Source: Lachnospiraceae bacterium
GTDB lineage: Bacteria > Bacillota > Clostridia > Lachnospirales > Lachnospiraceae
Assembly: GCA_030524635.1 (NCBI GenBank)
Contig: JAUNGG010000005.1
Coordinates: forward strand, 1 to 64,000
DNA: 64,000 nt
Direction of reading: 5' to 3'
The notes under the pieces are model-generated. The model had not been told where the DNA came from. It saw only the letters and a list, made by a program, of their open reading frames with translations, and did not search any database. Of this stretch, positions 2,144-14,562 are shown one piece after another (within the stretch, counting starts at the first letter, position 1; each line of letters opens with the position of its first letter). A program made the position numbers and the translations under genes.

Positions 2144-5100
2144 TTACTTGATACTGAAACCGGGAGCGGATCCATTTTCGTTGTAGCAAGCTAGACTGGT
2201 GCAGTAGATATAATATGTGCTCAGTGAGTAACATTCACTGTTGCCGTCTAGGGAGCGAAGCCAGCTGTGATTGAGAATCGTTCCTGTTTCTGGAAGCAAG
2301 TATGCTGTAGTTTTTTGATTATTAACAGACAAAAGAGTCTGCCGTTTAAATGGGACAGCTTCCAATGGGTGTCTATAGTTTTCAGGCAATTCGTCTGAGT
2401 TTGCAAAATACTCATTTGATGATAACAACCAAAGCTTATCCCTTGTGATTACTACATTTTCTTCTGTTTTTGAATCATAGACTACATCAGACCTCACTGC
2501 TCTTGGATAAATAGCATTCTGCAGCGCCTGTGGGAAGCAGCTGATCAATGCTGTGGATTCAGAAAGCATATTTTCCTCAAAACCATTATCTTTATTGGTG
2601 ATATTGAGCATATTCTCTGTGACGACACCATTAAGCATGTTCCGGATTGCAGAATCCGGCCAGCCGCCCTCATTTGTGCCATACTTGTAACGGTTTGATG
2701 AAGTTTCATAATAGGTTGAGTGTGCACGATTCCAAGCTCGGTATCGTTTATAGATTGAGTTCAGTAAGTTTGTAGCTCCATCACCATCAGCCATCTTTCC
2801 GTTATAACTTGTACCCATAATTGCCTTTGCCTTTCCGTTTTCATCGATCATACTGATTAAAACGGAATGTGTGCAGCCATTTTCAAGGCACTCAGAGAAT
2901 ATAGTCGGATCTTTCCGGGCCTGTACGATAATCTCCTCCCATGTCATATCATGAATACATCGTTTCTCCTCCGATGGAGTATGGCTGGCATAGGTATTTC
3001 TATAATTTTCTCCGGATGCCGGGCCGAACGTAAGCGGCAGGATTGTTCCATCTGCATCGGTATCGTTAATGGCATAAATCGCTACCGCATATTTCACATC
3101 ATAATCTTCCTCCCATTTTGCATATATATGGGTATCGCTCATAATATTTGATGCTGCAAAATTATATATTTTTCTGCATTCTGCATCTTCATACCAGCCT
3201 ATAAACCGGTATCCAGGTTTTTTAGGATTATTAGCTGGCTTTGAGAGCTTACTGCCTTCTTTTATCTGACGTACCCAAGTATCCACCGCTGTCATGGTTG
3301 AATCACCATCTTTTACAATCGTGCCGCCATCCAGTTCCATGATGACCCAATAGCGTTTCAGAGGTTCTGGAAGCGTTACATGAATACTAAATGTTCCGGT
3401 TCTTTCGACGCCGGCTTCTTTATAAATAACAATGCCTGTATGGCTATTAGAGCCTCCGTCAACAACTGGATTACTTAGAGTATAGCTTCCTGCTGGTATT
3501 TCATAACTTGTGCCATCATCATACAATGCAGATACGGTCAAGTCTGATGTCGAAATCGTATAAACACGTTCCTGTGCATCATATCCTTCTGTGTTCTCAT
3601 CAATCGGATCCGGACCATGGTATTCAACACGGATTCCTGTTAATTTCACTCCGGTCTTTACAATGTTGGTTGCATTCACTGTATGAGACAGCTTCTCATA
3701 CTGATTTATTTCGTTTTCAAAGGTAACTTCTGCATAGTTGGAATCCAGCAAATCTGCAGCTGCAGTCGTGTCTTCAACCGCTATATTATCTGTATCTGCA
3801 GTAATTGCAGCCAGCTTATATCGGCCAGCGTTCAGTTCCGTTACCTGGTAATAATACCCCTGATCTACTGTGACGTTTACATGTCCCTCCCTCTGCTCTG
3901 AGGACAGCGTAATTGATTTATAGTATGTCTGCAGCACCTCCATATTATCCTTAGCTTTTTTCTCAATTCGGAAGATAAAGGTAGGATCGCCAAAGGGAAC
4001 ATACACCTCATTAATCACCTTATTAATTTTAAGAGTTGCTTTATTTCGGACATCCTCGGCTGCAATTTCCTGGAGCACATCTGCATTTTCCTTTGTCACA
4101 GAAAAACGAATCTTTTCATCAGACAAACTGTAAGACTCTGGTGCAGCTGATTCCAGTAAATAATAGCCGCCTTGAGCAATTCCAGTAATCGTGATTGTAC
4201 CATCCTCGCCTGTAATAAGCTTGTCCATCCCTTCCGGAAGTACATAGTCAATGCCGGCAATGCATTTTGTTCCATCAGTGCGATATAATTCATACTCGGC
4301 ACCAGTCAACGTCTGTGTCCTGTCATCAGCATCCACTTTAATCAGCTTAAGACTTCCCTTTTGTCTCTGATCCGTTGCTTCAACATATATGGTGGACTGA
4401 ACCGTGTCCTGACTCAAAGTAAATGCTATATGCTCGTCTGAAAGCTCATACCCTCTCGGAGCCTTGCTCTCAATAAAATAATAATCCCCCCATTCAAGAC
4501 CCGATACTCTAATCTCACCGGCTGCATCTGTTTGATAAAATGTTTCCAGAGCAGCATATTCCGTAGAAGCTGCTGGTTTATACATCAGCGTGTACCCAGC
4601 GCCTGAAACCAGCTGGCCTGCATCATCAAGTTTCGTCAGGATAACATTGCCTTTCATACGATCATTCATATAAACAATTTCCAGTATCTGATGGACCGTT
4701 GACTGGTCCAAAATAACCGAATTTGTAATAGCCTCCCGCCCGGACGGCATCACATAGCCTGCAGGATTTTTCGTTTCAACAAAATAATACTCCCCAAACG
4801 TCAGGTTATCTACCTGTAATTCTCCAGCTGCATTTGTCTTCAGTCCGCTCTGAATCAATTTATCCTCAGCTTCATCATATTTTGCTTTTCGATATAGGCT
4901 GAAAACAGCATTTTTAACTGCCCGCCCATCTGATGAATCTTTCTTGATTAAACGAATGGATGCCGGTGATTCATTGTTGCGGGCATTTACAACAGCAATC
5001 ACGTTATCCGTTCCCATCGGGTCAGAAGGATCCCCTGGTACAAATTGGTTTTTCCCAATTGTAAATTTAACCGGGTCATTGCTAAGCTCATAACCCCTTG

Positions 5101-8100
5101 GTGCCTTTGTTTCAATAAACTGATAATTTCCCCACGGCAGATTTGTAATGCTTACAGCGCCATCTGCACCAGTTACTACTCTACTTATACTTCCAGTTTC
5201 AGAATATGCCATATTTTCATCCAGAAAAACCTGGTCTCCATTTTCCCTGAAAAGTTCAAATTCAGCGTCAGCAAGCGGGCTTATGCTGCTGTCGTCCTGG
5301 TCATATTTTGTCAATATAACCTTTCCAGGGATCCGATGGTTAGGGATATTTAAAATCTCTGTTACACCGTTGATCTCAAAGCTATGACGTCCATTTATTT
5401 TTTGATATCCTTTGGGCGCCTCCAGTTCTTCCCACTGATAAGTGCCATATGGAACATTGGTAAGGACGATTTGCCCCAAAGCATTTAATTCCTGACCCTT
5501 ATCTTCAAACATGGCATTTCCGTCTCGGTCATAAACCTGGAATTTTCCCCCTGTAAGTGCAGCATAGCTTTCACTGCCATTCGCGCCTGCATGGACTAAA
5601 TGATCTGCATCCACTTTCTGCAGCGTAATCTTGCCAATGGTATCCATTAGCTTCACATAGGTTTCAGCCGATGGAAGTTCATAACGCGCCTCAAAATTAT
5701 CAGCAGAACCAATGCCATAAGCATCAAATTGTACGTAATATTGATTGACAGCTTTTTTGTCAACCAGCATTTTGTCCGATGGAGCCTGCATATTTACTAT
5801 CACATAAGTCATCTGCCGGGTTTTCATAAGGCCATCCTTCAGATTTGATGTATCCAGATGAATCCAAATGGATTTCACGTTTCCTGGATTATCAGGAAGC
5901 TCTGTGCTCCATCCTTCTGCACCGGCAGCAAATTCCTGGTCAGGATCTGTACTGTAGTATACCGTTGGAATCAGCTTCATCTTTTCTGCATAGGAGGTAT
6001 CAACCGATACAAAATTCCCCTGCCATGCAGAGGGAATTTCGGTATATTCGTCTGGTTTTGCAGTATTTAAGGCAACACGAGCTCCCTGTTCGATGTGGTC
6101 AAAGAAATCGATATTCTTTGCATTATCAGAACCCAGGCCAAAATCAAGCCGGTAAGAATATCTGGACTTGCTTTTGATCTCTTCAGGATCTGCCTCATGA
6201 TAAGGCTGTACTGCAGCTTCCGTTTCATAACCATTGGAGTAAATGGATTTGACGTACTTGGACACATATTCCCGCCATTCGGATGCAGAGTCCAGCACGA
6301 TTTTGGAAGCTCCGGAATACGCCATCCTTTCTGTGATAATTCCATTCCCATTAATATCGTATGCATCTGCCATAATTGCAGCTCCGGAAATCTGATCCAG
6401 ACCATCATCATGTACCATGAGATACGAATTTACCGTATAGTAATTTCCACAAGAAATAAAATCGGCATATTTTAATGTTACTGCAAAGGATATGGAAATA
6501 TCCGTCTGCTTACTGATCTCCAGGGGAGTATCAGAAAAATCAAAGTCTGCAATCAACATGGTCTTTCCATTGTATTCCCCTAGGGAATAGCTCACATGAC
6601 TCTCAAAGTCTTCTGATGTTACTGCATCACCAGAATAATAGGTGCCGCTTCCAGTCAGGCGGATACCGTCTGTGTCCAGATTAAGAGAAAGACCGTCTGG
6701 TATGACGGTATAAAGAGAAAAGGATTCTAACGAACCGGAATCATCTGCTTTGATACTTCCTTGAGAAGCTGCCGTTGATGTAAAACCGCCATTGTTACTT
6801 CCGGTAAATTCAGCCAAGGCTGTTTTGGAGATTAGTTTTGTAATTGGACTCCTTAACCACACATTAGAATATCCTCTCAGCACACACTCATCATAAATTT
6901 CCATGTCTCGTTCCGCCAGCTCACGGCCATAAGTCCCGGCATAGCTTTCCGTCTTCTGGGCACAGTCATTCACCTCATAGCCATTCGGATCTTTGTACAG
7001 GGAACGCAGGTAGGAAAAATTCACCAGACGATTTTCACGATCCGGTACCGCTTCTCCAGCAGCAGCTTTTTGCTGCTGTGTTTCCCAGTCAAGATGCAGA
7101 CGGACACCTACATATGCATTATAGTGATAGCTTCCAGTAATATTGTTTACCCGAACAAACATGGCTTTCATTCCGGCAGGAAGCTGTATGGTACTTTGTT
7201 TAGAGGTATTGCCGCTTCCACAATATATGTATTTGCTGAAGGGCGTATCCTGTGCGTCTGCTCCGTAAACCTCATAGTCATATCCTTTGGAATCAGAAGG
7301 CATGGTGATATAAGCAATGTCATACTCATCATCTTCCAGATTGCGCACAGAACCGTCAGTCAGGAAGATTGCCAGTTTATCATCACCCATAACAAGGCTG
7401 TATCTATCTGCATTGCCGTTTATGCCAATCTGGCTTATACCGGTAGTATTTCCGCCCAAACCTTCTGGATCATCTGAAGACTGTGGAATTACCGCTGATT
7501 TTGAAGCACTGGGATCGCTGCTTTTTTTCACAGTACTGTTAGTTGCCTTTCTTGCTGTGCTGTCTGTTGCCGCTGCAAATGTCTGCAATGGAACAAATAA
7601 TTCTCCTATTTTCCGAATACCATTTTCAACACCAGATATGCTGCGTTGAATGGATCCCCAAATCGTCACATCTGGTACATACGGCTCACGATCCGGGTCT
7701 TCCCAATCATAAGAGGCGTTGGAATCGGATGCCGGCTCCGGATGGATCTCATCATAGGTCACACTATTTCTGATCATCGTTTCCAAGTCCGTTTCTGTCA
7801 AGCCATGTTTCCGCCAATGGATATCATTCCAATCTGCAGCAAACTCCGGTACGAGAAGAGCTTCTTCTGCTTTTGCGTTGGATTCGGTTGCAATGGATAA
7901 TGGAATGCTTGACGCGGCAGCATCAACCTCCCAGCCGGATGCATTTGAATCTGACCCAGTCCTTACAGCTGCTTTGGCTTTTAAGCCGGCCTTTGAACTG
8001 GCTTTTGACGAGGCATAATTTCGATTTGAGATGCCGCGTAAAATAAACGGTACAACTTTACCATTATAGATGTTTACAGCATTCATCCGGTCAGAATAAT

Positions 8101-9277
8101 GATCTGGAGCTGAATGACTGTATGGATAATCTTCATAAGAAGAATTCCATTTGCTGTGTTCGTAAATATATCCTGCACGAGCGAAAGAATAATCTGCAAC
8201 GGTAAAGCTTACCTCATCATCCACCTTCTCATTCTCTCCTGCCTCCGTGATCCACTCAGATTCATCATGATACAGCCTGTCCAGATGGCCGCGGATCGTT
8301 ACCGTACAGTATTCTTCTGATTCTTCATCCATAAAATGATCTTTTAAAAAACCGATCTGAAACTGGTCATAATAAGTGGAATACTGAGATCCAATATCGC
8401 CGGAATGGTTTTGAAATGGGTAAAATCCCCAAACAATCTGACCGGATTTTGTTGTAATTTCTTCTAAAGAAAGTATTTTGCCGTCGTCATTTATTTTTAC
8501 ATCCGAATAACGTTTGCCCTCCGGCAGTTCTACGGCAACGAAGTAGTTGGAACGGCACAGTCCTCTTGCCAGCCAATCCTTGTCAAATCGTGTTTCGATC
8601 TCATACCAGATATAATCATGATCTGATTCTTCATAATCCGCTGCAGCCAGTTTATTTTTTTTCATGTTAATGCGGTAGCGATCACGAATAGAAGTAAATG
8701 AATAGGAAAGCGGCTCCATCTCAATCTGACCGGTACCGGCAATACGAAACACTGGTGGCTTTTTCTGATAGTATCCATTTTCTGACTTACGGGCCTGCAT
8801 CGTCCACAGCATCTGGAAGCCGCCAGATACAGACTGGCCGGTCTCCACAGAAAATTTGTTGGAAAAGGTATAGATATCATCATTTTTGTTCCAAGTACAA
8901 CTCCATTCTGAATCCGCAGCATCACTGGCCAGGTCTGATGCCTTCAAAATGCTGGCACGGTTCCCATTTCCGATTCCGGGAATATCAAACTGGATGTCCC
9001 CAGGCTCATAGGCATGCTCTGCATTTTCCAGGCGGTATGTTACAACTATTTTGGGCTGCTTTACGCTGGAACAATCAGCATCCCAAGTATAGTCATTTGA
9101 AAGAATAGACCAGGCACAACTGACCTTCCAGCCATCCAGATAATTATTATATCCACCATCTGCCCAGGTGGAAACCTGGATTCCTGTCACGGTCAGAATC
9201 AGAGCAAGCAGAAACGAAACTGTCTGGCGCACCCGGTATAACATATTCTTCAGATAATTAAGCATTCTTGAACTCAT
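2144..9277 (-). CDS. Giant secreted adhesin with Cna-B repeats, InlB-type repeat and DUF6273-like end
   Basis: Secreted protein of about 2,377 residues. A basic N-terminus and hydrophobic stretch near residues 15-40 form the signal sequence. Residues to about 1200 have no family I recognise and include Ser/Asn/Ala-rich segments with repeated SDSNAS-like motifs. About 1210-1875 holds five Cna-B (SpaA-like) domains and one divergent copy. These carry K-x-D strand starts (KVDAD, KYDQD, KLDDAG) and E-x-x-APxGY motifs, typical of intramolecular isopeptide-bonded stalks. Next come an Ig-like segment, one InlB/Flg_new repeat near 1976-2055 (GYRFIGWYEDAECRK) and a C-terminal DUF6273-like domain with WLRS. 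No LPxTG or C-terminal membrane segment is present. The start was chosen because its ATG overlaps the upstream stop as ATGA. Probably a surface-fibre adhesin. Confidence 0.8.
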   Translation of the reverse strand: MSSRMLNYLKNMLYRVRQTVSFLLALILTVTGIQVSTWADGGYNNYLDGWKVSCAWSILSNDYTWDADCSSVKQPKIVVTYRLENAEHAYEPGDIQFDIPGIGNGNRASILKASDLASDAADSEWSCTWNKNDDIYTFSNKFSVETGQSVSGGFQMLWTMQARKSENGYYQKKPPVFRIAGTGQIEMEPLSYSFTSIRDRYRINMKKNKLAAADYEESDHDYIWYEIETRFDKDWLARGLCRSNYFVAVELPEGKRYSDVKINDDGKILSLEEITTKSGQIVWGFYPFQNHSGDIGSQYSTYYDQFQIGFLKDHFMDEESEEYCTVTIRGHLDRLYHDESEWITEAGENEKVDDEVSFTVADYSFARAGYIYEHSKWNSSYEDYPYSHSAPDHYSDRMNAVNIYNGKVVPFILRGISNRNYASSKASSKAGLKAKAAVRTGSDSNASGWEVDAAASSIPLSIATESNAKAEEALLVPEFAADWNDIHWRKHGLTETDLETMIRNSVTYDEIHPEPASDSNASYDWEDPDREPYVPDVTIWGSIQRSISGVENGIRKIGELFVPLQTFAAATDSTARKATNSTVKKSSDPSASKSAVIPQSSDDPEGLGGNTTGISQIGINGNADRYSLVMGDDKLAIFLTDGSVRNLEDDEYDIAYITMPSDSKGYDYEVYGADAQDTPFSKYIYCGSGNTSKQSTIQLPAGMKAMFVRVNNITGSYHYNAYVGVRLHLDWETQQQKAAAGEAVPDRENRLVNFSYLRSLYKDPNGYEVNDCAQKTESYAGTYGRELAERDMEIYDECVLRGYSNVWLRSPITKLISKTALAEFTGSNNGGFTSTAASQGSIKADDSGSLESFSLYTVIPDGLSLNLDTDGIRLTGSGTYYSGDAVTSEDFESHVSYSLGEYNGKTMLIADFDFSDTPLEISKQTDISISFAVTLKYADFISCGNYYTVNSYLMVHDDGLDQISGAAIMADAYDINGNGIITERMAYSGASKIVLDSASEWREYVSKYVKSIYSNGYETEAAVQPYHEADPEEIKSKSRYSYRLDFGLGSDNAKNIDFFDHIEQGARVALNTAKPDEYTEIPSAWQGNFVSVDTSYAEKMKLIPTVYYSTDPDQEFAAGAEGWSTELPDNPGNVKSIWIHLDTSNLKDGLMKTRQMTYVIVNMQAPSDKMLVDKKAVNQYYVQFDAYGIGSADNFEARYELPSAETYVKLMDTIGKITLQKVDADHLVHAGANGSESYAALTGGKFQVYDRDGNAMFEDKGQELNALGQIVLTNVPYGTYQWEELEAPKGYQKINGRHSFEINGVTEILNIPNHRIPGKVILTKYDQDDSSISPLADAEFELFRENGDQVFLDENMAYSETGSISRVVTGADGAVSITNLPWGNYQFIETKAPRGYELSNDPVKFTIGKNQFVPGDPSDPMGTDNVIAVVNARNNESPASIRLIKKDSSDGRAVKNAVFSLYRKAKYDEAEDKLIQSGLKTNAAGELQVDNLTFGEYYFVETKNPAGYVMPSGREAITNSVILDQSTVHQILEIVYMNDRMKGNVILTKLDDAGQLVSGAGYTLMYKPAASTEYAALETFYQTDAAGEIRVSGLEWGDYYFIESKAPRGYELSDEHIAFTLSQDTVQSTIYVEATDQRQKGSLKLIKVDADDRTQTLTGAEYELYRTDGTKCIAGIDYVLPEGMDKLITGEDGTITITGIAQGGYYLLESAAPESYSLSDEKIRFSVTKENADVLQEIAAEDVRNKATLKINKVINEVYVPFGDPTFIFRIEKKAKDNMEVLQTYYKSITLSSEQREGHVNVTVDQGYYYQVTELNAGRYKLAAITADTDNIAVEDTTAAADLLDSNYAEVTFENEINQYEKLSHTVNATNIVKTGVKLTGIRVEYHGPDPIDENTEGYDAQERVYTISTSDLTVSALYDDGTSYEIPAGSYTLSNPVVDGGSNSHTGIVIYKEAGVERTGTFSIHVTLPEPLKRYWVIMELDGGTIVKDGDSTMTAVDTWVRQIKEGSKLSKPANNPKKPGYRFIGWYEDAECRKIYNFAASNIMSDTHIYAKWEEDYDVKYAVAIYAINDTDADGTILPLTFGPASGENYRNTYASHTPSEEKRCIHDMTWEEIIVQARKDPTIFSECLENGCTHSVLISMIDENGKAKAIMGTSYNGKMADGDGATNLLNSIYKRYRAWNRAHSTYYETSSNRYKYGTNEGGWPDSAIRNMLNGVVTENMLNITNKDNGFEENMLSESTALISCFPQALQNAIYPRAVRSDVVYDSKTEENVVITRDKLWLLSSNEYFANSDELPENYRHPLEAVPFKRQTLLSVNNQKTTAYLLPETGTILNHSWLRSLDGNSECYSLSTYYIYCTSLACYNENGSAPGFSIK

Positions 9278-9948
9278 CTCCTCTCCATATACTCTGTCCA
9301 TGCTATTTTCCAGCCATCTGTTTCTTCTGAAACGTCCTTTGCCGTAAAGGTTCCATCTGCATTTTCCTCATTAATATAGGTTTGGATCGAATCTGCCATT
9401 ACCAGGATATCAAAATCCCGGATCTGCGACACATCCGAATAAGTTACCATGATACACTCCGAAAGCGGAGTTGTCTTTTCCTTTGCTTTTATCGGAATCG
9501 TATAATAGTAATAGCCACCTAGCAAGACATCATCTGCTTCTGATATATATACCCAGTTTTCCGGGAGATTGGAACCGTCAGACGATAGATATTTTGATGC
9601 TTCATACCAGTGTTTTCCGTCAGGAGTTATTTGCGCAATATTTTTTATGGATGAATCGGAAAAATCCATAAACACGCGGATAAAAGAATCTGTTTGATCG
9701 ATGTTCTCGATCTGGATCTTCTTTTTGAAAATGTTATCTCCTACATCCTGCTTTTGAGGCGGCTCAAATTCTTCCGTAATGGAAATCGTGTTGCTGCCTG
9801 TCAGGATCTGGTTAATGATCTGCATGCGATAAGTCAAATATGCCATAGTAATGCCTGCAGATGCCAGGCAGACAACCACAACAAATGCAAGCTTCTTTAC
9901 ACATGCCTGCTTTAACCACGCTTTCCAGGAATGTAACTTATCCTTCAT
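9274..9948 (-). CDS. TasA/camelysin-like secreted protein
   Basis: A 224-residue exported protein. A basic N-terminus leads into a hydrophobic stretch at about 18-38 ending MAYLTYR. This is followed by a strand motif (TGSNTISITEEF) that parallels the post-cleavage motif of SipW substrates. Later WVYISEADD, GGYYYYTIPI and the VMADSIQ segment match the TasA-type fold pattern also seen in the two neighbouring upstream genes. It overlaps the LPKTG gene by 11 bp and the giant gene by 4 bp, and has a strong GGAGG site, so it is translationally coupled. Likely a minor fibre or adaptor subunit between anchor and adhesin; this role is inferred from position only. Confidence 0.65.
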   Translation of the reverse strand: MKDKLHSWKAWLKQACVKKLAFVVVVCLASAGITMAYLTYRMQIINQILTGSNTISITEEFEPPQKQDVGDNIFKKKIQIENIDQTDSFIRVFMDFSDSSIKNIAQITPDGKHWYEASKYLSSDGSNLPENWVYISEADDVLLGGYYYYTIPIKAKEKTTPLSECIMVTYSDVSQIRDFDILVMADSIQTYINEENADGTFTAKDVSEETDGWKIAWTEYMERR

Positions 9949-11254
9949 TCAAATCCTCCCTTGCCTTCTTTTTTTTCCGATAACAAAGTGGAAACAGGAA
10001 TAGGATCCCGCTGCCGCTGACAAGCATAACAGCAAGGAACCCGCAATTTCCCATACTCTCATCTCCGGTTTTCGGAAGGGCATCGTGAATGGCCTGACGG
10101 ATGCTCTCAATGACGGGCACAATCACTATGGATGCAGGATCTGAGGGTTCGGGAGCTGAACCAGAGAACTTGCCTGCTCCTCCAGAAGGTTCCGGATGTT
10201 GGTCTTTACCACCTCCTCCGCTGCTTCCTCCTCCAGATGATTCCGTATACTCTGTACTGAAGATCCAACGAACCCTTGCATGCTGCATTGCAGATGCATT
10301 TTGAAGCTCCCTCGGCATATGAATACGGTATGTAACAGCTTCTGTTTCATTCTGCTTCATAGAAGCTGCAATCAAGATACCATCCTTTAGAAGGTCTGCG
10401 CTCAATGGGCCAGTATACAAAATTTCTTTGCCGCAGTTAATCGTAAGAAGCAGATCAGAAAGCAGCTTTAAGGATTCTGTTGACTGATCGTCCGGAACCT
10501 CCGTCCGAAATTTGATGGAAAGCGGTCTGGAAGCTTTATTTCCAATCAGGAAGAAATCTTCCATGGTATCTCCCGGCATCATTGCAGAAAAATCCTGGAA
10601 AAAATCATTGCCGACTTTTATGAATCCATCAACCCCATTCTCGAAAATAACAGCAAACTCCGTATTTTTACCTGCATGGTACCGTTCATGCTCAGTATGG
10701 ACACATGCTTCAATAGGAACTCCAAACCAGGGATCCTCTGAGTCAAATGAAGGGTTGAAATGCACCTTCTGAATGGCTTGTGCTGTGATGTCAATTGAAA
10801 ATTCCTTTCCTGAATCGTTCTCATTCCAAACCGCAGGAATCATAACCTCCTCAAAGAAATGAATCTCCTCTCCGGTATCTACAGGCCTTGTGTAATAGTA
10901 ATAGTCGTTTTGCTTGATCCACCCCTCAGAAATACCGCCTAACATACCTTCTCCAAGGCTGTTGATGCCGGAGGGGTTGACAAATTCTGCTTTTGCCCGG
11001 ATCCATGCTGGTTCTGCTTCGTTGATAATGCAGATGATCTTTACTACCTTCTGACCTGGCAGAACAGTTTTTCTGTCCTGATAAGGGATCTGGTTTCCAA
11101 GGTCATCCAGTTCATATTCTTCAAGCGTAATCGAAATGTCACCGGTAGTTATTGTATTATCCACTTCTGCTGAAAATTGGTGGGTTGCTGCAAAGGCCGG
11201 AGCAGCAGCCAGCAGCCCCACAACAGACGCCAATATAAAAATATATTTTCTCAT
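9938..11254 (-). CDS. LPKTG-anchored TasA-like surface protein
   Basis: A 438-residue precursor. An N-terminal signal peptide ends near APAFA at residues 19-23. A TasA/camelysin-like domain follows, with the TITTGDISITLEEY start motif, GWIKQNDYYYYTRPV and ITAQAIQ. A second beta-rich domain comes next, then a Gly/Ser/Pro linker near 335-370. The C-terminus has a sortase signal: LPKTG at 393-397, a hydrophobic segment and a KKKK tail. Sortase would therefore link it to peptidoglycan; no sortase gene lies in the window. It is the only cell-wall-anchored member of the locus and is a good candidate for the fibre base. The start has a GGGAGG site. A terminator-like hairpin lies just upstream. Confidence 0.8.
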   Translation of the reverse strand: MRKYIFILASVVGLLAAAPAFAATHQFSAEVDNTITTGDISITLEEYELDDLGNQIPYQDRKTVLPGQKVVKIICIINEAEPAWIRAKAEFVNPSGINSLGEGMLGGISEGWIKQNDYYYYTRPVDTGEEIHFFEEVMIPAVWNENDSGKEFSIDITAQAIQKVHFNPSFDSEDPWFGVPIEACVHTEHERYHAGKNTEFAVIFENGVDGFIKVGNDFFQDFSAMMPGDTMEDFFLIGNKASRPLSIKFRTEVPDDQSTESLKLLSDLLLTINCGKEILYTGPLSADLLKDGILIAASMKQNETEAVTYRIHMPRELQNASAMQHARVRWIFSTEYTESSGGGSSGGGGKDQHPEPSGGAGKFSGSAPEPSDPASIVIVPVIESIRQAIHDALPKTGDESMGNCGFLAVMLVSGSGILFLFPLCYRKKKKAREDLNEG

Positions 11255-11298
11255 TCACCGCTACCTCCCGGCAATTCCCTTTTTATGGTTTGTCTCGA

Positions 11299-11332
11299 AA
11301 AAGGGCACAGAAGGACAATCCTGTACCCTTTT
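11299..11332 (-). terminator. Hairpin between TasA-like and LPKTG genes
   Basis: AAAAGGGCACAG (11299-11310) and CTGTACCCTTTT (11321-11332) pair with one G-U. On the minus strand the stem runs into TTTTTC. It sits 44 bp before the next start codon, leaving little room for a promoter. Partial termination would make the TasA-like protein more abundant than the downstream products. Confidence 0.65.
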
Positions 11333-11415
11333 CCAAGAGTTCCGTTCTTTTACCATTAATAAAAAGAATGGTCTGAACAGTTACAAAGATTGATACAAAG
11401 AATCAGGGTCTCCTC

Positions 11416-12303
11416 TTAATGTTCTGCCCCGATCAGATCCTGCACATTGCCTGCGCCTGCCTGCTTAGCATCTGTACTGTGTATGCCGGTCCATGCTGCC
11501 AAAGCGCCATTGGCATCCTCTGTACGGTTCTGGGTCTTATAAATGGTAAAGATCTGGGACAAGGTAGCCTCAGACATATCATCTCCAACCGGAATGTTAT
11601 CATTGAGCTCACTGTTATCTGTGTTCTGCAGGAAATCAGACTGGATCGCATACGCTCTTACCGGAACAGTCAGCTTCTCACCTTCCAGCTGGCCCTCCAC
11701 AATGTTTGCCAGACGAATGTAATCAAACACGGACGGTACTACAGTGGCATCTGCCGCTTCAACTGCAGCAACATAACCATCCTCCCCCGGATTGCCAATG
11801 GCAGCCTTAGCTTCTGCTGCGGCCTTTACCACCTTGTTGTAGCCATATACATAGGTCATGTAATCAGAAATGCCATCGCCGTCCTCATCAACTTCAGCGG
11901 CATTGCCGATCTGTACCCAGCCGTCATTAACGGATGAATATTTACCGGAGCTTGCCCGGAAATCAAACAACTGCTGATTGGATGTCTGTTCTTGCACCGT
12001 ACCGTCATAGCCTGCCAACTTCACCTCGGCCATGGGAATATCAAAGCTTACAAACACAATCTCATCATTGCTGCCAGTATTGGCAACCGTTGGATCTTTC
12101 CGGATCTCCTGATTCGGTACACGGGGAACATCATCCTCCGGAGTATAGTTGGGCTCAGAAAGATCAATGGTAACCTTACCAACTGTAAATGTGTTGGAAG
12201 TCGTCTCACCATCCGTCAGGTACGCAGCAGATGCTCCTGCACCTACAGCAGCGATCATGCCGCATGCAGCGATTGCTGCCAGTTTCTTTTTTGTCTTTTT
12301 CAT
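11416..12303 (-). CDS. TasA-like SipW-dependent matrix fibre protein
   Basis: A 295-residue exported protein. The signal peptide (basic KKTKKK start, hydrophobic 8-25, ASAAYLTDGE cleavage region) followed by NTFTVGKVTIDLSE is the typical SipW-cognate pattern of TasA and CalY proteins. The mature part has WVQIGN and the VRAYAIQSD signature near the C-terminus, plus an alanine-rich insertion around 160-190. The gene starts 17 bp after the signal peptidase gene, as in Bacillus sipW-tasA. By analogy it forms amyloid-like or fibrous extracellular matrix. It is probably the major subunit because a terminator-like hairpin follows it. Confidence 0.8.
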   Translation of the reverse strand: MKKTKKKLAAIAACGMIAAVGAGASAAYLTDGETTSNTFTVGKVTIDLSEPNYTPEDDVPRVPNQEIRKDPTVANTGSNDEIVFVSFDIPMAEVKLAGYDGTVQEQTSNQQLFDFRASSGKYSSVNDGWVQIGNAAEVDEDGDGISDYMTYVYGYNKVVKAAAEAKAAIGNPGEDGYVAAVEAADATVVPSVFDYIRLANIVEGQLEGEKLTVPVRAYAIQSDFLQNTDNSELNDNIPVGDDMSEATLSQIFTIYKTQNRTEDANGALAAWTGIHSTDAKQAGAGNVQDLIGAEH

Positions 12304-12320
12304 GTTTCTTTTTTGACAGA

Positions 12321-12935
12321 TTAAATCCCGAATGTTTTATCTGTCTCTCCTTTCCTCTTTTTTAACGAATTGCGTAATTTATTTTGAATCCATGTTGGAT
12401 CTCGGGCTGATTGATGGGGATCACAATTATCGTCCACAACTGCATTTAATACAAAGCAGAATGCATGCAGGCCGAAAAGCCACACAGCCGCAACGAGCAT
12501 AGCTTTTCTCGACAATTTGGATATGACATATCCTGCATAAGGAATACTGGCAGCATAGGTTCCGATGATCTTGTCCATAGTCAGAAGATTCAGATCTTCC
12601 ACTTCATTGTTGTCACCCTTCGTCACAAATCCATCTTTGGTTACTTCTACGATACGATGGGTGACAGTGACATCATCCTTTCCATTGGACATGGTAAACG
12701 TCACAATATCATTTTCCGCTGCCTGCCTATTCCTGGTATTAACAAATACAAGGCTGCCTGTGGGGATGGTTGGCTCCATAGATGATGATAAAATAATGTA
12801 TGGATGAATCCCCGCTATTTTCGGAACTGCTATAACAGCCGCAGCAATAAACGCCAGGACCGTAATCATCCAAAGACAACATTCATAAATTCGTGCTGTC
12901 CGTTTCAGGGCGTTAGCTTGATTGGTTTTCTTCAC
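12321..12935 (-). CDS. sipW: Signal peptidase I, SipW (ER-type)
   Basis: Membrane signal peptidase of 204 residues. There is a membrane segment near 20-40. Catalytic Ser52 lies in SSSMEP, and His93 in VTVTHRIVEV replaces the Lys of ordinary bacterial enzymes; this marks the ER/SipW class. The conserved KGDNNE box is at 106-111, and a second hydrophobic segment is near 145-165. I chose the GTG start at 12935 because AGGAAGG lies 8 bases upstream and because longer starts would overlap the upstream gene. It is placed directly before the TasA-like gene and is presumably the dedicated processing enzyme for the TasA-type precursors downstream. Confidence 0.88.
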   Translation of the reverse strand: MKKTNQANALKRTARIYECCLWMITVLAFIAAAVIAVPKIAGIHPYIILSSSMEPTIPTGSLVFVNTRNRQAAENDIVTFTMSNGKDDVTVTHRIVEVTKDGFVTKGDNNEVEDLNLLTMDKIIGTYAASIPYAGYVISKLSRKAMLVAAVWLFGLHAFCFVLNAVVDDNCDPHQSARDPTWIQNKLRNSLKKRKGETDKTFGI

Positions 12936-13017
12936 GTGTTGATTTCCTTCCTGTAGTTCCTTACGATGCCGGAGTGCCTTTATAAACAAATGGATGTTCA
13001 GCTCAGTATTGATAGAG

Positions 13018-14124
13018 CTAATTCTGGGTTTTATCCGGAGAAAGGATCCCAAGCTCATCTGCCTGCCGTCCATCCGGAGCCAAGGCATTTGTCAGCATCT
13101 GTCCATCCGATGTCAGATAATAGTCCCTGTCCTTCCAGGTCACATAAGCATCATGTGCCATGAATCCGCTGCCCCAAAAGTAATACCAGCTTCCATCGAT
13201 CAGCTGCCAGATATCCTGCGGATAGGTTCCGTCATGGCTGCGGTACCAGTATTCTCCTTCCGGTGTCATCTGCCAGCCAGTGTTTAAGTATTCAACGCGG
13301 TTATTATCCGGCGTATGTGCCAGGCTCTCATCGATCTTATCATTTACCTTTTTCACCTCATATCTTTCCCGATTCGCTCCGGCTGTTTCATTTGTTACGA
13401 TGCAGCTTCCTCCGCTGACCCATTCTCCGTATTTTCCATTCTTTGAGATCGCACGGATCTGATAGCGGTATGTGCCGGCGGTGAGCATCAGTGGGGCAAA
13501 ATCGTAGCTCGTACCAGCTGTTTCAGCATAATGATACGTTCCCTTCGGGTCAGAAAGCCGCAGCCGGTAGCCGACTGCATACCGGCTTTCACTCCATTGG
13601 CCCCTGCAGCCATTCCAGGTGCTTTCTGCAATCTGGCCGGTATATGCGTCCAAATGATCCAACTGAACCACTAATCGGAGCGTATGACCGTTGTCTTCCT
13701 GGCGTGCCCTTAAAAGTACTGCACCCATGCCAGAAAGGGTGATCTTATTCTTATCCAAAGCCGAAAACCGAAACTGATATCCGGCAGCAGTTGAAAGCTC
13801 AACTACATAGATATCTTTCGGATCACCATAAGAAGCATCATAAAGAGCATCATATGGATCATTAAAATTCTCGTATGGTCCATCTGAATTCAGCTCATAA
13901 TATACTTCTGCCGATTCACACAAATCTACCTGATACTGTGCCGGGCTCCTTGCAATAGCTTCAATCTGAGGCAGCCCGCTGAAATCGTAGGCATCCGAAA
14001 TAAATTTTACATTTACCCGGTCAATTCTGACCACGGCGTAAGACCGGCAGGAGGCTGCCAAAGACAGAATAGCCGCAGCCAATAATACATTTGTTATCCA
14101 GTTCACATGCTTGAATCCGTTCAT
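13018..14124 (-). CDS. Secreted protein with Fn3-like part and wall-binding repeats
   Basis: A 368-residue exported protein of unknown function. The signal segment is at about 12-32. Residues 35-260 look beta-rich, with an Fn3-like pattern near 175-245 (AGTYRYQIRAISKNGKYGEW). The C-terminal 90 residues contain aromatic repeats of the choline-/glucan-binding type (GWQMTPEGEYWY, WQLIDGSWYYF, DYYLTSDGQM). These usually attach proteins non-covalently to wall polymers. It is the first structural gene after the hairpin. SD AGGTGAG lies close to the ATG. It may help seat the fibre in the wall; this is inference from position. Confidence 0.65.
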   Translation of the reverse strand: MNGFKHVNWITNVLLAAAILSLAASCRSYAVVRIDRVNVKFISDAYDFSGLPQIEAIARSPAQYQVDLCESAEVYYELNSDGPYENFNDPYDALYDASYGDPKDIYVVELSTAAGYQFRFSALDKNKITLSGMGAVLLRARQEDNGHTLRLVVQLDHLDAYTGQIAESTWNGCRGQWSESRYAVGYRLRLSDPKGTYHYAETAGTSYDFAPLMLTAGTYRYQIRAISKNGKYGEWVSGGSCIVTNETAGANRERYEVKKVNDKIDESLAHTPDNNRVEYLNTGWQMTPEGEYWYRSHDGTYPQDIWQLIDGSWYYFWGSGFMAHDAYVTWKDRDYYLTSDGQMLTNALAPDGRQADELGILSPDKTQN

Positions 14125-14145
14125 TTCTCACCTCACCTTTCAATT

Positions 14146-14193
14146 AAAAAAAAATCCCCTTACCAAGACAATTACTTGTCCTGATAAGAGGAT
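14146..14193 (-). terminator. Terminator/attenuator between XRE gene and fibre operon
   Basis: Arms 14154-14171 and 14176-14193 pair with a few G-U wobbles around TTAC. On the minus strand the stem is followed by nine T residues (14145-14153 region). It begins 3 bp after the regulator's stop codon and ends about 21 bp before the next start, with no space for a promoter between them. Confidence 0.85.
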
Positions 14194-14196
14194 ACC

Positions 14197-14562
14197 TCAA
14201 ATCCGTTTATTTTTCATTGGACTGTTAGTCCTAAAAAATGGTAAAAGCATCAGCAGCCGTTTCAAGAAATTGTGATCCTGCCGTGTCTCCACATCTGTGA
14301 TCAGCTCCTGCCGTGCTTCCACGGTCTCTTCGATCAGCAGCTCTTCCATATGGACACCAAGCAGGATGCTCAGCATAAATAAATGATCCACAGATGGAAG
14401 TACCTGTCCCTTGAACCAGCGGTAAATTGGCTGGGGACAGGACAGGTGAAGGGATTCCTGAATGCTTTTCACGTCATATCCCTTCTCTGCAATTAATTGC
14501 CTCAGGTTGGCACCAGTACGTTTCAGATCAATATTTCTGTAGTCATCATTTCCTTTTTTCAT
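14197..14562 (-). CDS. XRE-type helix-turn-helix regulator
   Basis: Small cytoplasmic DNA-binding protein of about 121 residues. The HTH lies near residues 15-70 (LRQLIAEKGYDVKSIQESLHL, then IYRWFKGQVLPSVDHLFMLS). A basic C-terminal tail follows without a known sensor domain. The start at 14562 has GGAGG five bases upstream; a longer in-frame ATG would put that site inside the gene. It heads the fibre transcript and is separated from it only by a strong hairpin, so it probably controls the locus, perhaps through its own promoter. The target site is not identified. Confidence 0.78.
   Translation of the reverse strand: MKKGNDDYRNIDLKRTGANLRQLIAEKGYDVKSIQESLHLSCPQPIYRWFKGQVLPSVDHLFMLSILLGVHMEELLIEETVEARQELITDVETRQDHNFLKRLLMLLPFFRTNSPMKNKRI

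Follow-up and report, generated by a model that had tools for sequence, protein, structure and literature searches.

The locus at 14583-2144 on the minus strand of the 64,000-nucleotide stretch of Lachnospiraceae DNA analysed here (the window) is real and conserved, and represents a variant of the TasA/BsaA fibre systems with a new candidate docking device. The device is a tail, shared by adhesins with unrelated adhesive domains and absent from an earlier note on this DNA, that, compared position by position at the level of sequence, resembles the TasA N-terminal donor strand. With moderate confidence, we propose that the operon encodes a TasA donor-strand fibre that TasA2 would fasten to the wall and to which the adhesin would dock via its strand-mimicking tail. 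How TasA-type fibres display adhesins and attach to cells is unsettled, and we found almost nothing on this subject for gut bacteria. Should adhesins indeed dock by this tail, Gram-positive bacteria, among them common genera of the human gut (Blautia, Fusicatenibacter), would have a counterpart to chaperone-usher pili with their tip adhesins, one that a 26-residue motif makes recognisable from sequence.

Gene content and conservation of the operon

The genes and limits claimed for this group in the earlier note are all present, co-directional on the minus strand, and the gene overlaps are confirmed (Table 1): TasA2 and TasA3 overlap by 11 bp, and TasA3 and the giant adhesin by 28 bp, or by 4 bp with an alternative start of the giant at 9277 that gives the 2,377 residues of the earlier note. 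Since a strong hairpin followed by a T-run lies between the XRE-family regulator and the next gene, the regulator may have its own transcript, and what had been read as a single group may be two transcripts; a scan such as ours is expected to give about 11 chance sites over this region, and the hairpin at 14193-14154 is the strongest of all. The SipW reading frame reaches upstream to 13088, and its probable start, the GTG at 12935, was picked from the ribosome-binding site. We call the product SipW as an ER-type Ser-His signal peptidase beside TasA-type genes; it scores 88.8 bits against TIGR02228 (cut-off 51.85) and 85.2 bits against the Bacillus SipW equivalog profile, below the cut-off of 190. 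Scans of the window for tRNAs and Rfam families were empty.

Table 1. Features of the operon, in gene order, with the evidence for each
Feature	Position	Strand	Evidence
XRE-family regulator, 128 aa	14197..14583	-	HTH_3 weak; kept in congener L057 (2e-73)
Intrinsic terminator-like hairpin, XRE/operon gap	14154..14193	-	18 pairs + T8 tail
Secreted protein, C-terminal choline-binding repeats, 368 aa	13018..14124	-	PF19127 6.6e-7
SipW signal peptidase, ER-type	12321..12935	-	SSSMEPT, THRIVEV; TIGR02228 3.2e-25, NF046067 4e-24
TasA1, TasA/BsaA-type, SipW-type signal peptide, probable shaft subunit	11416..12303	-	TIGR04088 3.6e-6, above cut-off; TIGR04090 and Peptidase_M73 sub-threshold
Mature N-terminus of TasA1, AYLTDGETTSNTFTVG, putative donor strand	12178..12225	-	aligns with A28-G42 of B. 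subtilis TasA (AFNDIKSKDATFASG)
TasA2, two-domain TasA-type anchor protein, 438 aa	9938..11254	-	AlphaFold model and match to TasA fibre 8aur
TasA-fold second domain of TasA2	10217..10639	-	structure match, residues 206-346
LPKTGD sorting signal of TasA2	10061..10078	-	sequence; then TM segment (KD 2.24) and basic KKKK tail
TasA3, TasA/BsaA-type, SipW-type signal peptide	9274..9948	-	TIGR04090 3e-8, sub-threshold
Giant SpaA/Cna-B adhesin, 2,385 aa	2144..9301	-	SpaA 2.4e-78, Flg_new 4.7e-11, DUF6273 2e-4
SpaA/Cna-B domain array of giant	3812..5326	-	five SpaA domains by Pfam, 2.4e-78
Tail motif of giant (VTFENEINQYEKLSHTVNATNIVKT), residues 1859-1883, internal, 502 aa from C-terminus	3653..3727	-	profile A8, E 6e-9
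Flg_new (InlB-type) repeat	3116..3292	-	Pfam, 4.7e-11
DUF6273-like C-terminal domain, possible ligand-binding tip	2147..2701	-	21.7 bits, just under 23.5 cut-off

All seven genes stand in the same order in a congener, Lachnospiraceae bacterium isolate S34M_St_102 (G005; L057/L088), with 60-90% identity where measured (TasA1 90%, giant 72%, TasA2 60%). Because this seven-gene unit is conserved, we rejected chance, a pseudogene or an assembly artefact as the origin of the locus. The choline-binding-repeat protein has a counterpart in the same position that is 65% identical; within the operon it was seen in the congener only, and about ten partial relatives of it (11 matches including itself) occur elsewhere in the genome.

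With TasA1 as the query, public species genomes yielded 49 loci. The order SipW, TasA1, TasA2, TasA3, adhesin was found in four loci (the window, L088, L091 and L157, the last of another family), the order SipW, TasA1, TasA3, TasA2, adhesin in six, including those of Blautia schinkii (L093), Fusicatenibacter saccharivorans (L103) and Lacrimispora saccharolytica (L100/L104), and SipW, TasA1, TasA2, adhesin in four, with the same parts reordered in other loci; these counts are minima, as the loci were annotated by purpose-built profiles and a strict ORF caller that drops some genes. Permuted operons of this kind, with smaller adhesins, are spread over the Lachnospiraceae and other Clostridia (Blautia, Fusicatenibacter, Lacrimispora). 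What holds up of the earlier note is a conserved genetic unit, a SipW/TasA-type locus that combines an adhesin with a single TasA-type protein anchored to the wall. Its gene order recurs in relatives, contrary to the outcome that the note had named as refuting; the uniqueness that the note implied by a fusion of two systems known separately is lost, since operons joining an adhesin to SipW and TasA genes are widespread.

TasA1 and TasA3 as putative fibre subunits

The SipW-type signal peptide of TasA/BsaA (camelysin-like) fibre proteins is found on both TasA1 (TIGR04088, 27 bits against a cut-off of 19) and TasA3 (..MAYLTY, recognised by eye). Since TasA3 (33.7 bits) and TasA1 (27.8 bits) fall below the 60-bit cut-off of the BsaA profile TIGR04090 while the TasA3 relative in L103 passes it (66 bits), we name the two, judging from these scores, BsaA-like rather than members of the BsaA family. 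When the PDB was searched by sequence, none of the profiles built for TasA1, TasA2 and TasA3 found a credible match, and the relation of TasA2 to TasA is visible by structure only. In other Clostridia (L110, L111, L105, L158), TasA-type N-termini are fused to longer proteins (500-780 residues), or a single protein has two TasA-type matches.

TasA2 as the likely anchor

TasA2 has the sequence of a sortase-anchored surface protein, with an LPXTG motif, a TM segment and a basic tail, and its TIGR01167 score of 14.2 is just below the cut-off of 15.9; profile searches found no Pfam domain beyond a weak anchor match. An AlphaFold model built from 20 relatives (mean pLDDT 71) predicts two good domains, at residues ~40-183 and ~202-340. 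In a VIA-align search of the PDB with this predicted model, the second domain matched the TasA fibre 8aur with Z 9.3 over 135 residues at 3.1 A, and the top three entries were all TasA (8aur 9.3; 5of2 7.7; 5of1 7.6, the last with a match range that begins in the first domain), with unrelated folds at 7.0 or less; a Z of 9.3 is above these unrelated rows, yet not high. The first domain gave generic beta-sandwich matches only (Z 7 or less), and a TasA fold is thus predicted for the second domain alone. Foldseek alone placed integrins and CupB6 on top at a TM of 0.17 or less, which is not meaningful, and a genome-contig scan with the single TasA2 sequence found no match. The TasA2 of the window is without the AYLTD signal peptide motif; that of L103 passes the SipW-type profile (20.1).

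A C-terminal TM segment is present in 30 of 32 TasA2 relatives, in most cases after an xxxTGx motif, which is a canonical LPXTG in few (the window, L088, L157) and degenerate in most (e.g., PVKTGD, APKTGL). Two of 148 TasA1/TasA3-type proteins passed a similar anchor test. Because TasA2 relatives regularly bear anchors and TasA1/TasA3-type proteins almost never do, TasA2 is likely the anchor of the system; attachment by sortase is not certain across all its relatives. In the other two of the 32 relatives, L060 and L061, choline-binding repeats take the place of the LPXTG-like anchor, so that one type of anchor appears to have been exchanged for another.

A tail common to adhesins of TasA/SipW loci

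The adhesin that adjoins the TasA-type genes varies between loci: some have SpaA arrays, others SpaA with VWA domains (L063, L066), TED thioester (L089, L097), TQ ester (L091) or AgI/II C2 domains (L059, L062). Despite these unrelated adhesive domains, 52 adhesins have in common a gap-free tail of ~26 residues, F.N...SH.D..VN.[IF], a set that takes in loci found via the tail itself, so that the count is no estimate of frequency. The tail consists of F.N at the end of the last domain, about ten residues and SH.D..VN.[IF], which becomes WLDGD...N.F in more distant Clostridia. It lies at most 35 residues from the end in 47 of the 52, none of which has a sorting signal (LPXTG) or a C-terminal TM segment, and it is also present in adhesins where no SpaA domain was detected (L058, L062, L097, L102).

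We found the tail to be specific to these loci. An 18-row tail profile gave nine matches at E 1e-5 or better in 145 relatives, mostly members of the profile, and all on SipW-bearing contigs. In 397 genomes of the family and 391 of the class, the latter scanned with a second tail profile as well, 22 matches at E 1e-3 or better outside the loci already examined were inspected (14 family, 8 class), some of which are possibly close relatives of profile members; TasA-type genes lay beside 21 of them, the exception being a 74-residue frame (L149). One of these matches (L141) has a TasA1 neighbour and no SipW in its stretch, and another (L146) lies 219 residues from the end of a 510-residue frame that may be broken. 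The LPXTG Cna-B pilins of the host genome itself did not match the tail profile.

These results bear on whether the locus encodes a sortase-assembled pilus, in which a class C sortase encoded elsewhere would polymerise or attach the proteins, with the giant as pilus adhesin. Such a pilus could draw on three sortases elsewhere in the genome, two of class C and one class B-like, on the LPKTGD of TasA2 and on SpaA domains, which are typical of sortase pilins. However, neither the operon nor the window contains a sortase gene and the class C genes sit in LPXTG pilus loci of their own; sorting signals are missing from the giant, TasA1 and TasA3, as from all the tail adhesins; and the BsaA polymers of C. 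perfringens form without need of the neighbouring srtB (PMC7395162). With no class C sortase in the locus and a Cna-B subunit that has no sorting signal, the locus does not qualify as a class C sortase pilus, and we regard assembly by a distant sortase as very improbable. The term 'sortase-anchored' in the earlier note fits the one protein with LPXTG and is weakened by the mostly degenerate or exchanged signals of its relatives, and 'sortase-assembled' is not supported for the fibre. The literature likewise speaks against the 'amyloid-like shaft' of the note: TasA fibres are donor-strand polymers (PMC9674648), and C. perfringens colonies that make BsaA do not stain with Congo Red (PMC7395162).

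Likeness of the tail to the TasA donor strand

We compared 25 similarity-reduced tails, aligned on the N of N-x-[IF], with a matrix of 14 positions derived from 123 distinct TasA-type N-termini with no tails included, scoring the ten upstream positions. The tails scored -7.5, compared to -15.3 ± 1.3 (sd) for residues shuffled within the tail, and none of 20,000 shuffles was as good; the outcome depends on the choice of N-x-[IF] as the anchor and, as the sequences are related by descent, overstates the likeness and gives no probability of independent events. Of ten registers, the true one (0) was the best, with the nine shifted ones lower. Agreement was found at -8 (aromatic or Leu), -7 (Ser/Thr) and -4 (Asp); -2 and -1 were neutral, and -10, -9 and -3 disagreed. 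When whole adhesins were scanned with the TasA matrix, the best match fell within the last 60 residues in 10 of 57 (2.9 expected), a moderate enrichment. In B. subtilis TasA (AFNDIKSKDATF, A28 to F39; letters confirmed in 8aur), the conserved hydrophobic positions of the tail, -8 and +2, correspond to F29 and F39, both of which are donor-strand contacts in a cryo-EM study (PMC9674648). In TapA, the motif AFHDI imitates AFNDI of TasA and donates a strand (PMC10151520).

In the arrangement that we favour, SipW would process TasA1 and TasA3 and free their N-terminal strands, and the two would polymerise, each mature N-terminal strand being donated to the next subunit as in B. subtilis TasA. TasA2, with its two predicted beta-sandwich domains and LPKTGD end, would tie the fibre to the cell surface, probably by a sortase encoded elsewhere. 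The Cna-B adhesin would be joined without sortase, the tail after its last Cna-B domain filling the open groove of a terminal TasA subunit, in parallel to the docking of TapA by its N-terminus. One consideration counts against such docking: with a donor strand at the C-terminus, the domain to which the strand belongs lies on the other side compared with TasA. More tentatively still, and as a plausible generalisation, gut Clostridia may make sortase-independent adhesive fibres into which interchangeable Cna-B, thioester, VWA or AgI/II adhesins plug by a donor-strand mimic that replaces LPXTG, with an anchor protein of exchangeable anchors holding the fibre to the cell.

The giant adhesin and its internal tail

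Four adhesins are giants of at least 2,250 residues with SpaA arrays (the window, L088, L154, L157). In the giant of the window, whose tail sequence is one of the rows of the profile that detects it (A8), the tail is followed by an Ig-like stretch recognised by eye, the Flg_new repeat and the DUF6273-like end; there is no sorting signal, and the protein ends in ..GSAPGFSIK. An 'LPETG' near the end was rejected as such a signal, as it lies inside the DUF6273-like region with no hydrophobic stretch after it. All four giants have the tail internally, with ~500 residues after it, and since three others share the placement, it is no local accident. The strand part of the giants' tails is the farthest from the consensus (SHTVNATNIV). 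The giants are thus an awkward case that counts against docking, in which the internal strand could still insert or docking may have been lost.

As a second alternative, the adhesin may be secreted as a matrix protein in its own right that shares its regulation with the TasA fibre; the tail would then form the final strand, or a cap, of the terminal domain and play no part in docking. The F.N with which the tail begins, taken here for the strand that normally closes a Cna-B domain, would fit this, as would the internal tail of the giant; docking of the tail to TasA is, moreover, read from sequence. On the other side, the tail occurs in adhesins with and without a detected SpaA domain, is restricted to TasA/SipW loci and is similar to the TasA strand, and we consider a separate matrix protein unlikely, though less so than a sortase-assembled pilus.

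Identity between the giant and its congener counterpart is uneven, at 40% over the last ~45 residues (2144-2280), 35-50% over residues 421-600 (7502-8041) and ~75% over the rest, a pattern that fits a binding tip and a linker. A model of the last 686 residues had a pLDDT of 33. Diversification of the DUF6273 tip by a DGR was rejected, as the genome (assembly 94% complete) contained no RVT_1 reverse transcriptase and no template repeat of the gene end. In another genome (G063), TasA/SipW genes are adjoined by a frame of 4,567 residues that includes a SpaA domain (L146:5641-19344).

Relation to known fibre systems

The C. perfringens sipW-bsaABCRSD operon, like the present one, joins SipW and a BsaA-family protein, for which TIGR04090 (NCBIfam) is named, to further secreted proteins, and its extracellular filaments need no neighbouring sortase (PMC7395162). 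It differs in that its transcript includes the two-component system BsaRS, which has no equivalent here, and in that BsaA is without LPXTG and its polymer is mostly released (PMC7395162). B. subtilis tapA-sipW-tasA shares SipW, the TasA fold, the N-terminal donor strand and a strand-imitating partner, TapA (PMC9674648, PMC10151520); unlike the locus here, it has no LPXTG anchor protein and no Cna-B adhesin, and the imitated strand is N-terminal in TapA, whereas in our adhesins it follows the domains. B. cereus sipW-tasA, calY and capP comprise two TasA-type subunits and an accessory protein and are sortase-independent, but CapP, a small DUF4047 protein that has QKKV/AEE repeats, is not an adhesin (PMC13082335).

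These comparisons raise the possibility that the adhesin with its tail is a TapA- or CapP-like chaperone or initiator of the fibre, its adhesive part being secondary. TapA does initiate with its donor strand (PMC10151520), and C. perfringens bsaB and bsaC mutants make fewer polymers (PMC7395162). A huge adhesin whose adhesive domains are exchanged between loci is, however, what would be expected for binding rather than for assembly, and we give such a role little credence; it is also compatible with docking by the tail, so that the two do not exclude each other.

The class C sortase pili of the same genome (C13, C24) share the Cna-B/SpaA domains, but have LPXTG pilins beside a class C sortase and neither TasA, SipW nor the tail. 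In both of these loci (L074, G000:C24; L075, G000:C13) a third LPXTG protein ends in LPRTGD, and that of L074 weakly matches TasA2 (3e-4). In the freely accessible journal literature that we searched, we found no account of the tail or of SipW/TasA operons with adhesins in Lachnospiraceae.

A record labelled 'Bacteriophage sp.' from human faeces (MT835485.1; L087) is 99.5% identical to Fusicatenibacter saccharivorans over 13,450 bp. About 340 codons into the adhesin gene (L087 16607 / L103:13449), it switches to a large serine recombinase and phage-like genes; this appears to be a prophage integrated inside the adhesin of a TasA/SipW operon, with one junction in the record.
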